A DNA stretch of 35,709 nucleotides, from positions 1-35,709 of the forward strand of contig SVOG01000029.1 in the NCBI GenBank assembly GCA_015066525.1. Reading direction: 5' to 3'. A program made the position numbers and the translations under genes. The DNA comes from Oscillospiraceae bacterium. GTDB lineage: Bacteria; Bacillota; Clostridia; Oscillospirales; Acutalibacteraceae. Positions 13 through 34,435 of this stretch are shown here, piece after piece. The notes beneath the pieces were generated by a model. It made no database searches and had not been told where the DNA came from. It saw only the letters and a program-made list of their open reading frames with translations. The stretch's first letter is position 1, and each line of letters begins with the position of its first letter.

Positions 13-268
13 CTATAAAAGCTATGACGAAGAAAAGTACTGCGAAAATGTACTCAAAGCGAGTGCGGGAGGGTGTAAGCCGCACAGTGGCAGTCGCACG
101 AAGAACACTTCTGAGCCGCAAGCTGAAAGGAAACGAGTAGGTGCGCCGCAAGCTGTGCGTTAACATACAGCAAGCTTTAATGACGAAGCTATGAGAAGCA
201 ATATAGGTGGCACCACGGGTAACAGTCGCTCGTCCTATAAGTAAGGACGGATGACTGTATTTTTTATT
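13..268 (+). promoter_or_regulatory. T-box riboswitch, asparagine-specific
   Basis: This is a tRNA-sensing leader of the asnS-asnA operon. Visible parts are the Stem I GA/AG-rich entry (GAAGAAAAGTA, from about 29), the Stem I distal region around 56-88, and a specifier codon AAC (Asn) at 104-106 followed by the usual purine-rich CTTCTGAGC context. The T-box sequence GGTGGCACCACGGGT is at 206-220, and an intrinsic terminator is at 223-266. The T-box bulge reads TGGC (208-211), which pairs with the GCCA end of a tRNA whose discriminator is G, as in tRNA-Asn. Uncharged tRNA-Asn should stabilise the antiterminator and switch on both downstream genes. The specifier assignment is my reading of the Stem I context, supported by the genes controlled. 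Confidence 0.9.
223..266 (+). terminator. T-box leader terminator
   Basis: CAGTCGCTCGTCCT pairs with AGGACGGATGACTG across a 7-nt loop and is followed by TATTTTTTATT. The 5' arm overlaps the region needed for the antiterminator, giving the mutually exclusive fold expected of a transcriptional T-box. It ends about 25 nt before the asnS start. Confidence 0.85.
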
Positions 269-28547: not shown

Positions 28548-28825
28548 TTAGCCACTTACCTCTAATATAGACATGCCTAAAACATAGCATTAAAGCGAAT
28601 ATTGGTGTTTTCGTTCTTGCTTGGCGTCAGCCAACCTGCATCCTCAAAGCACCAATCTTCATCTTAACTCCAATGTTTTAGGTGCTTTGCAGTTTAATTT
28701 GTGAAGATTTTTGCAAGCTCAAGGCGAAAAGCACAGTAATACTTGCGTATTGCGAGCATTTTCAACGCAGAGATTGTAAAAATATGCCAAATTAAACCAT
28801 GTTTATATTAGAGGTCAGTGGCTAA
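28548..28825. mobile_element. 278-bp inverted-repeat element with two long stem-loops (MITE-like)
   Basis: 28-nt ends at 28548-28575 and 28798-28825 are reverse complements at 26 of 28 positions. Inside are two tandem hairpins. The first is 28576-28682 (CCTAAAACAT/ATGTTTTAGG, then ATTGGTG/CACCAAT, then TTGGC/GCCAA). The second is 28692-28797 (GTTTAATTTG/CAAATTAAAC, imperfect stem, tip AATAC/GTATT). No coding capacity is seen. It fills the whole mraZ-rsmH gap: its right end contains the mraZ TAG stop and its left end the rsmH ribosome-binding site. Confidence 0.75.
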
Positions 28826-29259
28826 ATATCGTACTCGTCGAGGATATCCTCTACCTCGTCGACAGTAATGCCGCCAAGTTCCTCAGCGAACTGGCTGCAG
28901 TTCCATATCTCAATACGCTTGCCGTTGCCGAACACAACCGCCTGCTCCTCGCCTTCAAGGTCGACCGCCTTGCGCAAGTCCTCATTCAAAAGGAGTCTGC
29001 CCTGTCCATCGAGGCTCATCTTCTCGGCATTGGCGAGATAGAAGAATTCAAGTTGCTTACGTTTCTTATGCGTAACCTTGGTATGGATGCTCTCCATAAA
29101 CTTGTCCCACTCGTCAAGAGGATAAAGCGCGAGGCACTTGCCCGTGCCGCGGGATGCGACAAACTCTGTACCGAGGTCAGGTCGCATATTGGCAGGAATG
29201 GATATTCTGCCCTTTGCGTCAATCTTATTCGTTCGGTTGCCCATCAGACCGTACTGCAT
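28822..29259 (-). CDS. mraZ: Transcriptional regulator MraZ
   Basis: AbrB-like (SpoVT-AbrB/MraZ) DNA-binding protein that autoregulates the dcw operon, 145 aa. Two MraZ domains are visible: GNRTNKIDAKGRISIPANMR at about 8-27 and LDGQGRLLLNEDLR about 85-98, each with the conserved DxKGRxxxP-like core. ATG 29259 follows a near-perfect AAGGAGGAG; the upstream in-frame extension lacks homology. It is first in the cluster and lies below a consensus promoter with repeated GGGA motifs. Its stop codon is inside the 278-bp repeat element. Confidence 0.95.
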   Translation of the reverse strand: MQYGLMGNRTNKIDAKGRISIPANMRPDLGTEFVASRGTGKCLALYPLDEWDKFMESIHTKVTHKKRKQLEFFYLANAEKMSLDGQGRLLLNEDLRKAVDLEGEEQAVVFGNGKRIEIWNCSQFAEELGGITVDEVEDILDEYDI

Positions 29260-29321
29260 ACGCTCTCCTCCTTTCTGAAAAATGGGAAAAGATACAAAAC
29301 CCACATTATCCGTAGGACAAA

Positions 29322-29360
29322 TTTGGGATTTGTATGAATTTCTTTGGGATTTCTCCCCAC
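29322..29360. promoter_or_regulatory. Candidate MraZ-binding repeats in the mraZ leader
   Basis: TTTGGGATTT occurs twice on the plus strand (29322-29331 and 29343-29352), 21 bp or two helical turns apart, with GTGGGGA on the minus strand next to them (29354-29360). MraZ proteins are known to bind short repeated TGGG/GTGG-type boxes upstream of their own genes. Placement just below the start site suits repression. Confidence 0.5.
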
Positions 29361-29368
29361 TTGTCTTT

Positions 29369-29397
29369 ATTATAATAGGAGGATTCCCCATTGTCAA
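29369..29397 (-). promoter_or_regulatory. mraZ: mraZ / dcw operon promoter
   Basis: Perfect consensus on the minus strand: TTGACA (29392-29397), 17-nt spacer, TATAAT (29369-29374). The spacer also carries a TGGGGA motif. Start near 29362, giving a roughly 100-nt leader. Confidence 0.85.
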
Positions 29398-31288: not shown

Positions 31289-32815
31289 TTATGCCGGTTG
31301 TTTTTGAGGATGTATTTTTTCTAAATCCTCATCATCGGCAATATTAGTAATTCCAATGGCTTTGTAGTAAATATCAATCTTTTGCTTTCTGTGTCCGCTA
31401 CTCTTGTCTGGAGCGTGGACAACGATTTTGTCAATCAAATCATTTACCATTTCTGCGGTTAAGGCTTCGGGGTCGGTGTACTTACGAACATTTTTGAGAA
31501 ATTGATTAAGGTCGTATTGCTCTTGCTCGCCTGAATTTATCAGGTCTTGTAGCCTTGCAATCTCTTCCTTAATGCTTTTCTGCTCAGTTTCATAGTCTGC
31601 CGACATCATATCAAAACGTTCGTTGCTGATTCTGCCTGAAACCATATCCTCATATAGCCTTTTGAAAAGCTCATCAAGGTTATCACATCTCGTTTGGAGA
31701 TTGACGATATCCTTTTTTGCTTTCTTTACAGCTGCAAAATGCTCGGCATTTGCCTTCTCAATCTCTTTGTCAACAAATGCCTCCTCAAATTGCTGGACGT
31801 AGGAAAGAACATTTTGCAGGTGCTTAAAAACAAGATTTGTTAGCGTAATGTTACGTATATAATGGCAACTGCAAGTACCTGTATTGCTGCGATAATTTGA
31901 GCAGGTAAAGGATTCCAAATTCTCATCCCAGTCATTTGATGTATTGAAATACAACTTTGCACCGCAGTCAGCACAAAACACTTTTCCCGAAAATAAACTG
32001 AGCTTGCCGGTTTTTGTCGGTCTGTGCTTGTGACTCCTGATTTCCTGTACCGTTGCAAAGGTTTCTTTGTCAATTATTGCCGGCTGAGTGTTCTCAAACA
32101 GCAAACGGTTTTCCTTTGGATTATCCATACGCTTTTTGCTACGATAATTCTTTGATACCGTTTTATAGTTTTCCGTACATCCCGTGTAATCTATGTTCTC
32201 AAGCATTGATGATACTGAATGATGAGACCACTTATACGGTTCTAAAGGTAAAGATTTTCCTTTCTTTTGGCATCTGTATGCTGTTGGAGTCATATGTTTT
32301 TTCTCTCTGCGTAATATCTTTTCTATTTGGGAAGGTCCATATCCCTTAGCACAGAGATTAAAAATATATCTGACGGCTTCAGCGGCAGGCTCGTCAATAA
32401 TCCATTTGCCCTTATTATTTGGGTCTTTCATATACCCATGAGGAGGTACGCCCGTTAAGTGTTCACCTCTCTCCGCTTTCATCTTCATTGTGGATTTGAT
32501 TTTCTTCGCCGTATCTCTTGCATAAAGCTCGTTGCAAAAGTTAAAACTTTGATATCCGTGCCAAGCAATATATCCCGTTGTTTTGTTGAACTGCTTCTTG
32601 GTCATTATCATTTGCTTCAAGGCAATTTCTGTTACGCAGTTAATGGCGGTAACATATTGCTTGTCCACTGTTTTGTCATCTCTGGTTACATACCGAAATA
32701 GATTAGACAAGTCGCTCGGAGCATCTTTCACTTCAACTGTCTTGTCAGGATTTTCAACATACTTGATTAAATCGTTGAGGCTGCCTTCAATATGCCATAG
32801 TGAAGTTGTTGCCAT
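31289..32815 (-). pseudogene. In-frame relaxase::large serine recombinase chimera, both catalytic centres lost
   Basis: A continuous 508-codon frame made of two unrelated parts. Residues 1-91 are the N terminus of a MobA/VirD2-type relaxase (MATTSLWHIEG, KYVENPDKT, YVTAINC, GYIAWHGYQSF) ending before the HxH metal motif. From residue 92 (NFCNELYARDTAKKIK) it is a large serine recombinase of the Tn4451 TnpX type: recombinase domain (about 110-215), zinc ribbon CADCG...C...CSCHY (about 285-335), a coiled coil and a DUF4368-like tail. The resolvase domain with the catalytic serine is missing. The frame is open and its ATG overlaps the mobC-like stop (TAATG), so it may still be translated, but neither DNA nicking nor recombination is expected. 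Confidence 0.85.
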
Positions 32816-33126
32816 TACGCCACCTCCCAAGGTTGTGTACTCTCAGACTGAAACCTCATTATCCAGTCCTCCAACTCCTCACAAGCCATAAGAATATTTG
32901 TATTGTCATCTGCGTTATCCTTAATGACATTGTGAATAGCATAGAGCTCGTTCATTAATTCCCAAAATCTTTTATCAGGAATTGGTTTTGGAATTGACCA
33001 GCGAAGCATCCTGCGAACATACTCTGACTTATTACATCCACTTCGATTACTGGCAGCGTTTAATCTTTCAATATCCTCATCATACATTGAGAGCGTAACC
33101 TTTTTTCTTTTATCTTTTTCTTCCAT
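32815..33126 (-). CDS. MobC-like ribbon-helix-helix relaxosome protein
   Basis: A 103-aa protein with an N-terminal RHH motif (KVTLSMYDEDIERLNAASNRSGCNKSEYVRRML, about 9-42) and a helical C terminus. It matches the plasmid mobilisation relaxosome MobC type, which binds oriT and assists the relaxase. Its stop overlaps the start of the relaxase-derived chimera (TAATG), the normal mobC-mobA arrangement. The gene itself looks intact, but with the relaxase destroyed it could function only in trans with another element or as a repressor of its own promoter. Confidence 0.8.
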   Translation of the reverse strand: MEEKDKRKKVTLSMYDEDIERLNAASNRSGCNKSEYVRRMLRWSIPKPIPDKRFWELMNELYAIHNVIKDNADDNTNILMACEELEDWIMRFQSESTQPWEVA

Positions 33127-33660: not shown

Positions 33661-33743
33661 TTTCGCTTATTTGCTCAATTATGAGCGAAAAGTATAGTCT
33701 TAAAATAGAAAAAGGCACCGATATTTTTTAATATCGATGCCTT
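33661..33743. terminator. Pair of hairpins between the structured RNA and the small element gene
   Basis: TTTCGCT/AGCGAAA (33661-33690) and AAGGCA..GATATT/AATATC..TGCCTT with a TTTT loop (33712-33743). On the minus strand the second is followed by TTTTCTATTTT, so it can act as an intrinsic terminator separating upstream transcription from the 96-aa gene. Confidence 0.6.
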
Positions 33744-33832
33744 AATTACGCTATTCAGTTTGTGTAATTGGGTAAAAGAAAACACCATACATGCGTATGA
33801 TGTTCGCTTATATTATTCCGTTATTAATACCT

Positions 33833-33867
33833 AAAAAAGGGTATAGTATGCCCATTACAGCGTAATG
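33833..33867 (-). terminator. Terminator of the structured RNA
   Basis: ATTAC/GTAAT (33855-33867) then GGGCATA..ATACCC-type stem (33839-33853), followed on the minus strand by TTTTTT (33833-33838). Confidence 0.6.
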
Positions 33868-34269
33868 ATTTTTCTATTCGTCATCTAAAAATATTCTGTA
33901 AATTATCATTATATACGAGCCTATATTCAATATTATTCTAACAATAATCTGGCTCGCTTAGGCACACTATTCGTCCTCGACACCCGTGTGAAGCTCACTA
34001 ATGTGAACAGGGAATTCACCAACCTGCAAGTAGCTTGCTTGCATACCACGGGAGTTTCACCCACCAAGGTTCGCTGTTACTTGGTCGCACTTAGTACGGA
34101 TAATTCGCCGCGGCTGTCATCGCCTACGCAGGTTGCAATCCTACTCTCTATATAACCTATCTCGCTCCTTACTTCCCACAAGAAGTCTATCTTGGCGTAG
34201 TTATAGTCAGGGCTTGTGCTTTCGCACACCGCTTTGAATCAGTTGATGAACTGGTATTCAGTTTTCGTA
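33833..34269 (-). ncRNA. Large structured RNA, family not recognised (about 437 nt)
   Basis: Starts from a consensus promoter and ends at a terminator, with no plausible reading frame. Stems seen (plus coordinates): 34235-34260; TGTGC-GAAA-GCACA with a GNRA tetraloop (34215-34228); a long-range CTACGC/GCGTAG pair closing 34124-34200; CCAAG/CTTGG (34064-34084); TGCAAG/CTTGCA (34025-34043); GTGAA/TTCAC (34003-34019); CGAGCC/GGCTCG (33916-33956). GC content (about half) is higher than the AT-rich flanks, typical of a folded RNA. No maturase or reverse transcriptase is near. Possibilities: a raiA/ROOL-like ornate RNA, a group II intron remnant, or a new class tied to mobile elements. Confidence 0.6.
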
Positions 34270-34275
34270 TCTACC

Positions 34276-34304
34276 ATATTAGCAGATACAATTTCATTTG
34301 TCAA
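34276..34304 (-). promoter_or_regulatory. Promoter of the structured RNA
   Basis: Minus-strand TTGACA (34299-34304), 17-nt spacer, TAATAT (34276-34281). It predicts a start near 34269, just ahead of the first stem. Confidence 0.75.
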
Positions 34305-34435
34305 GAGAAAATTAGAATATTTGTTCGTATAAATTTTGAACGGTTTTAGATAGCGTTTTAATGACAATTGCACCGTCAGTTTTATAAATCTTCATATTAA
34401 TAGGATTATAAAAAGAAAGCGGCTATAAACTGATG

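Follow-up and report, generated by a model that had tools for sequence, protein, structure and literature searches.

pemK RNA (RF02913), for which a 2017 paper is reportedly the source, takes its name from a neighboring toxin gene and stands in Rfam as an orphan without assigned function. A search of the full-text literature outside subscription journals returned no link between this RNA and antitermination. One of the closest described systems is canT of Tn916, defined as the segment 126–577 bp past the orf8 stop codon (PMC11658703). According to the accessible parts of that study, canT is a cis-acting element without activity in trans; it is orientation-specific and processive, works on heterologous terminators, and is needed for expression past terminator T1, the inactivation of which restores expression (PMC11658703). 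Either deleting 162 bp or changing ATA to TGC is reported there to lower conjugation about 100-fold, with no drop in excision; the inactivating AUA-to-UGC change, canT(S3), was aimed at a tyrosine predicted in the antisense orf5. The 452-bp canT fragment is active, as are shorter fragments, and the same portions of the text make no mention of pemK, Rfam, boxA or NusB (PMC11658703).

Other RNA-based systems are known in less detail here, from partial texts. conAn2 of pLS20, located where a conjugation operon begins, is the RNA component of an antitermination system in which the protein ConAn1 is required for processivity (PMC8955417), and put RNA of phage HK022 and EAR of B. subtilis eps are described as RNA-only processive antiterminators (PMC11658703, PMC8955417).

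A promoter-led structured RNA in a mobile-element remnant

We analyzed a stretch of 35,709 nucleotides from an Oscillospiraceae bacterium (assembly GCA_015066525.1, contig SVOG01000029.1), hereafter the window. An initial annotation had described positions 33833–34269 as a stand-alone RNA with its own promoter and terminator in a mobile-element remnant, possibly a new class. The promoter-led structured RNA and the remnant held up on analysis, and the T6 terminator did not. The RNA and its promoter are placed as follows.

34276–34304, minus strand: promoter TTGACA-N17-TAATAT with TG ahead of the −10 hexamer, 10/12 matches, kept in 5/5 element copies scanned
33961–34270, minus strand: structured RNA with predicted start near 34270, proposed to be a processive antiterminator of canT/pemK type

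The promoter hexamers are kept in the window and in the copies L002, L004 and L045, and L006 carries TAGTAT. As such, the scans gave no excess over shuffled sequence, either for promoters (7 sites versus 6.0) or for terminators (2 sites in the window versus 1.7), and the weight of both signals therefore comes from their conservation and not from their count. The GC-richer, ORF-less block in AT-rich DNA was recovered, with a GC content of 0.484 at 33961–34270 versus 0.275–0.30 in the adjoining stretches and no ORF of at least 80 aa in the ORF list between 33557 and 34436. Folded as a single sequence, 33833–34269 only modestly beats chance (z −2.0, with 3/100 shuffles equally good), so that the case for an RNA is carried by the covariation of its homologs. 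The T6 terminator at 33833–33853 found no support (z 0.18, with 102/200 shuffles folding as well) and strong hairpins lie further downstream, which makes the 3′ end originally given to the RNA doubtful.

A direct Rfam search of the window for this RNA, proposed with the initial annotation as a check, returned chance-level matches only and no confident assignment. Identity with raiA, ROOL, GOLLD, HEARO or a group II intron found no support, as no Rfam model for these matched in the window, and a retron was considered and supported by no match.

Relatives and covariation

blastn searches detected the RNA in 7/98 related genomes, the window's own genome counted; the match in G091 (L007) is a 34-nt piece downstream of the core. 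Identity to the window RNA is 86–98% in four same-genus copies and 72% in G001. Extended to the whole order, blastn revealed distant relatives with a common 3′ motif; the seven places matched included the window itself, the real relatives L016, L017, L018 and L020, and L019, and L021 was discarded as a relative because its match falls in a reading frame. A scan of genome contigs for the 3′ motif identified 31 loci, all in contigs titled as Clostridia or members thereof. No match was obtained by blastn in the phage and plasmid collections; in viral contigs, one pattern gave a single match, rejected as lying inside an apparent coding sequence, and a second pattern gave none.

A covariance model, R1, was built from 17 relatives, with the window cluster and Tn916 left out. 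In the window it matched 33961–34125 on the minus strand with 55.4 bits (E 3.4e-18), the runner-up scoring 6.5 bits, and the window RNA was its sole match in the genome. Since the relatives had mostly been collected through the 3′ motif, the search was rerun with that motif cut off and still gave 24.7 bits (E 9.2e-10 in a search of 310 bases); the motif thus supplies more than half of the score in the window, which counts against the match. R1 matched in 143/394 genomes sampled from the order and in 25/398 sampled from the phylum, own genome included.

The structural parts distinguished by sequence and alignment, all on the minus strand, are listed below.

34236–34259, minus strand: 5′ hairpin GAAUACCAGUUCAUCAACUGAUUC, from the sequence and the homolog alignment
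34216–34227, minus strand: GNRA hairpin GUGCGAAAGCAC, from the sequence, present in some homologs and absent from others
34148–34206, minus strand: helix A, arms 34199–34206 and 34148–34157, 8/8 pairs double-changed among 29 homologs
34114–34200, minus strand: long-range ACGCC/GGCG pairing, in the window also CTACGC/GCGTAG, weak covariation (1/5 pairs)
34128–34144, minus strand: hairpin GUAGG..CCUGC, 5/6 helix pairs with changes on both sides
33961–34125, minus strand: 3′ core matched by R1, including the equivalent of Rfam pemK RNA
34025–34043, minus strand: helix d UGCAAG..CUUGCA, 5/5 helix pairs with changes on both sides
33962–33990, minus strand: 3′ domain CACAC..GUCGAGGAC..GUGUG, terminal helix with 6/6 pairs double-changed

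Both the GNRA-capped hairpin and the CTACGC/GCGTAG closure (34195–34200 with 34124–34129) had been correctly recognized in the initial annotation, and the covarying stems that it proposed to look for in homologs were found. The alignment of 82 matches (76 distinct) fitted to the model shows double changes at 28/31 pairs and a covariation of 0.614 versus 0.182 in shuffles. In alignments unfitted to structure, the 3′ core retains 14/34 such pairs (covariation 0.253 versus 0.118), and the 5′ domain (alignment A4, window included) 19/24 (0.531 versus 0.198 shuffled), a pair count that 43/500 shuffles also reached and a covariation score that they did not. Alignment A1 was made without L024 and the near-duplicates L039 and L048. 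At the 3′ end, an H-type pseudoknot UUCCC/GGGG and a nested fold have equal support because their bases are invariant. In G031 (L005:1764–2041), the apical loop of helix d is interrupted by some 278 nt of inserted sequence bounded by inverted repeats, and the arms are intact; the equivalent site in the window is 34034–34038.

Relationship to pemK RNA and Tn916 canT

The Rfam model of pemK RNA matched inside 7/7 relatives searched, all of them among the 17 sequences of R1. It gave no direct match at or above its gathering score in the window or its genome, none in the window with the E threshold relaxed to 10, and none in L006. The 5′ block AUAAUGAUACU of the model is missing from the window, where GAAUUAUCCGUAC stands at 34106–34094; the window thus reads AAUUAUC (34094–34106) against AAUGRUACU in other members, the block on which canT(S3) is predicted to fall, and the same alteration is kept in L006, at 72% identity. 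Over the extended core, homology with pemK RNA is recovered through R1, at 55.4 bits with and 24.7 bits without the 3′ motif. Judged by this profile of other members, the window RNA is a divergent member of an extended pemK/canT RNA family, and the suggestion of a new class was given up accordingly.

The link to Tn916 emerged from L018, which lies directly before xis and int genes of Tn916 type; on account of this adjacency, xis regions from plasmids were examined. One of them, L053, was deposited with an annotation of the Tn916 excisionase. R1 matched this Tn916 copy at L053:989–1176 with 59.4 bits and nothing else in its 356-kb plasmid, and the Rfam pemK model matched at 1011–1111 (55 bits, E 1.3e-7). 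In the numbering of L053, the canT fragment spans 854–1305, enclosing both matches, so that a single covariance model identifies the window RNA (55.4 bits) and canT (59.4 bits). In L053 the antisense frame orf5 runs to 83 codons and reads GCA at codon 30, in agreement with the available text of PMC11658703. Tyrosine is encoded only twice in it, both times on the AUAAUGAUA block, with which the pemK model begins; this places canT(S3) on that block, at a predicted L053 1011–1013 or 1017–1019, as far as the partial description of the mutation allows. The pemK match also covers Tn5 codon 41. The location of pemK RNA within canT points to a function that can be tested across the family.

In L054 and L056–L060, R1 gave no match; the pemK model matched L057 and L060, and not L054, L056, L058 or L059. 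In the Tn916-like L057 and L060, RNAs upstream of xis thus match pemK and not R1, indicating that the family branches beyond R1.

A box at the 5′ end of the family

RNAs of the family start with (C/U)UUGANAACUGAAUA, resembling the word CCTTGAAAATTAAACA found in the rrn leaders of 9/9 16S loci in 4 of the 6 genomes of the order searched. We take this rrn-leader box to be boxA, for which the literature searched gave no Firmicutes sequence. The position of the box in the window is degenerate:

34255–34270, minus strand: boxA-like 5′ box position, degenerate AUACGAAAACUGAAUA, 13/16 to the box derived from the RNAs and 10/16 to the rrn-leader box

The first box test used 79 of the 82 matches (three duplicates dropped), 76 of them distinct and 72 with enough upstream DNA. 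Its words had been chosen after viewing the RNAs, and the test was therefore repeated with the rrn word alone, which reached at least 12/16 in 37/72 loci versus a mean of 2.85 (maximum 7) in dinucleotide shuffles and 2/71 in a downstream control. An rrn-type boxA (NusB–S10 site) was not recognized in the window at 10/16. The active 452-bp canT fragment starts two bases inside the box and, according to the accessible text of PMC11658703, shorter fragments are also active, so that the importance of the box in canT is putative. In the rRNA operons of G226 (L063, L067, L069), the 16S–23S spacer carries CATTGAAAACTGAATA, which is closer to the 5′ box of the RNAs than the leader copy is.

Tandem terminators and mobilization genes downstream of the RNA

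The RNA is followed by two intrinsic terminators and a set of mobilization genes on the same strand.

34384, no strand: probable left end of the element, where alignments of the copies G030, G031 and L045 stop
33774–33805, minus strand: first intrinsic terminator past the RNA, hairpin 33805–33780, z −5.0
33709–33743, minus strand: second intrinsic terminator past the RNA, hairpin 33743–33712, z −7.0, with a compensatory change in L002
33267–33557, minus strand: 96-aa ORF, first gene past the terminators, from the ORF list
32815–33126, minus strand: NikA/MobC-like mobilization protein (PF21983, E 2.6e-5, under the curated cut-off)
31289–32830, minus strand: chimeric ORF, a remnant with a MobA relaxase start and a serine recombinase rear without resolvase domain

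Alignments of two other copies stop at 34389 (G051) and 34328 (G047). The element in the window is a remnant or a chimera: the relaxase start of its chimeric ORF (96 residues) is 91% identical to G031 and the recombinase part 38%. Deletion, recombination or faulty assembly could each account for the in-frame fusion at 31289–32830. Intact-looking relatives show the order RNA, 100-aa ORF, mobC-like gene, mobA relaxase and serine recombinase (G031) or RNA, mobC, mobA, ParB and serine recombinase (G001), and by gene order the RNA heads a small mobilizable element in these relatives. Elsewhere, the window carries a T-box leader (15–240, plus strand, 105.4 bits) upstream of an ORF at 291–1667, and encodes an MraZ-family protein (28822–29397, minus strand).

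Downstream of the RNA, the window, L002, L004 and L045 all have tandem terminators, as does L006, a 72% identical relative that keeps the layout despite terminators of unrelated sequence. A total of 63 terminator-like sites was counted in 73 loci, versus 25.7 expected from crude two-base-block shuffles; 30/73 loci have no such site in the 600–1300 nt scanned, which counts against an antiterminator. On the RNA strand, promoter-like sites (at least 9/12) are confined to the DNA ahead of the RNA and to the interval separating it from the terminators; past the terminators, none occurs within the 700 nt scanned (456 nt in L045; 32800–34700 in the window). Stop signals conserved between a promoter and otherwise promoterless genes make most sense if something aids the passage of polymerase.

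The first downstream ORF was classified at 70 of the 76 distinct loci (five have no suitable ORF and L004 was left out; in L072 and L099 an ORF that begins within the RNA was skipped). It belongs to PemK in 32 loci, HTH_17 in 12, ParA in 10, Tn916-Xis in 4, resolvase in 4, TnpW in 2 and NikA in 1, families that can overlap. Such varied genes, mostly of mobile elements and with no common pathway, suit a role at the level of the operon and not the control of a single gene. At ParA-type loci the RNA continues into the leader of the gene, and only about 60–70 nt separate the 3′ motif from the ParA start.

Proposed mechanism

Taken together, it appears probable that the window RNA (34270–33961) is a cis-acting processive antiterminator of canT/pemK type at the head of a mobilizable-element operon; by analogy with canT, the window branch would share its antitermination activity. 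The RNA would be transcribed first, from the element's own promoter, fold while attached to RNA polymerase and alter it in cis, possibly by direct action on the enzyme. The altered polymerase would then read through the terminators at 33805–33780 and 33743–33712 and transcribe the mobilization operon (96-aa ORF, mobC, mobA and recombinase), whereas transcripts from host promoters outside, lacking the RNA, would stop at the tandem terminators.

That the RNA might instead be a stand-alone, trans-acting product, starting near 34270 and ending at the tandem terminators, would fit its being bounded by its own promoter and two strong terminators, as well as the differing genes downstream. Its homolog canT, however, is described in the accessible text as working in cis and not in trans (PMC11658703), the ParA-type loci continue the RNA into a gene leader, and the mobilization genes have no promoter-like site before them; we therefore regard a separate trans-acting RNA as improbable, and the initial description as stand-alone gives way to that of an RNA in the leader of a mobilization operon, followed by tandem terminators. 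Comparably unlikely is an attenuator or riboswitch, controlled by a ligand or protein and acting on the nearest terminator only (Rfam type Cis-reg). The leader position, the terminators downstream and the large conserved structure would all suit such a device, yet the first downstream genes share no pathway, and the terminators are separated from the core by more than 150 nt and are of wholly different sequence in L006, a distance and a divergence that also make specific base pairing between RNA and terminator unlikely; moreover, canT works on heterologous terminators, as stated in the available text (PMC11658703). A decayed, inactive copy in a remnant element, which the chimeric ORF without resolvase domain, the altered invariant block and the degenerate box might suggest, is very improbable, as the stems, promoter and terminators of the window are intact and L006 keeps the altered block and the promoter beside intact-looking mob and recombinase genes.

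The processive antiterminator reading can be extended, tentatively and at somewhat less than even chances, to all pemK RNAs. These might be Firmicutes mobile-element antiterminators that copy host rRNA entry, an rrn-like 5′ box (CCUUGAAAAUURAACA) loading NusB–S10 and the fold making polymerase terminator-resistant; the window branch, that of small mobilizable elements, would have remodeled the box and the invariant block and kept the promoter, the fold and the tandem terminators. Help from NusB–S10 through the boxA-like 5′ box would then apply to other members, and the window branch, having remodeled box and block, may contact polymerase differently. For the window RNA, the antiterminator reading suggests that small mobilizable elements, too, may insulate their transfer genes by terminators and carry an RNA key to them.

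Comparison with known systems

The likeness to put and EAR is one of description only, Rfam families of their type giving no match in the window at gathering scores, and it is drawn from partial texts. conAn2 resembles the window RNA as an RNA element at an operon start and differs, as far as the accessible description goes, in its dependence on ConAn1; a search of pLS20 with R1 gave no match. pemK RNA shares with the window RNA a multi-helix core, the GGGUGAAACUCCCGUG hairpin and a mobile-element context, and one model finds both, although the window lacks AAUGRUACU and a direct Rfam match; the Rfam model covers only 61 positions, whereas the conserved RNA is about 300 nt long and has additional domains on its 5′ and 3′ sides. 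canT is similar to the window RNA in length, in residing in a mobile element and in having terminators downstream to cross, with intrinsic terminators lying in the window between the promoter and RNA and the transfer genes. Tn916 canT lacks the 3′ motif and the GUCGAGGACAAAU block found in relatives. According to the available text, it lies upstream of xis–int at the right end of its element and acts after circularization; the window RNA, unlike canT, is preceded by a promoter of its own and sits close to the left end, ahead of the mob genes.
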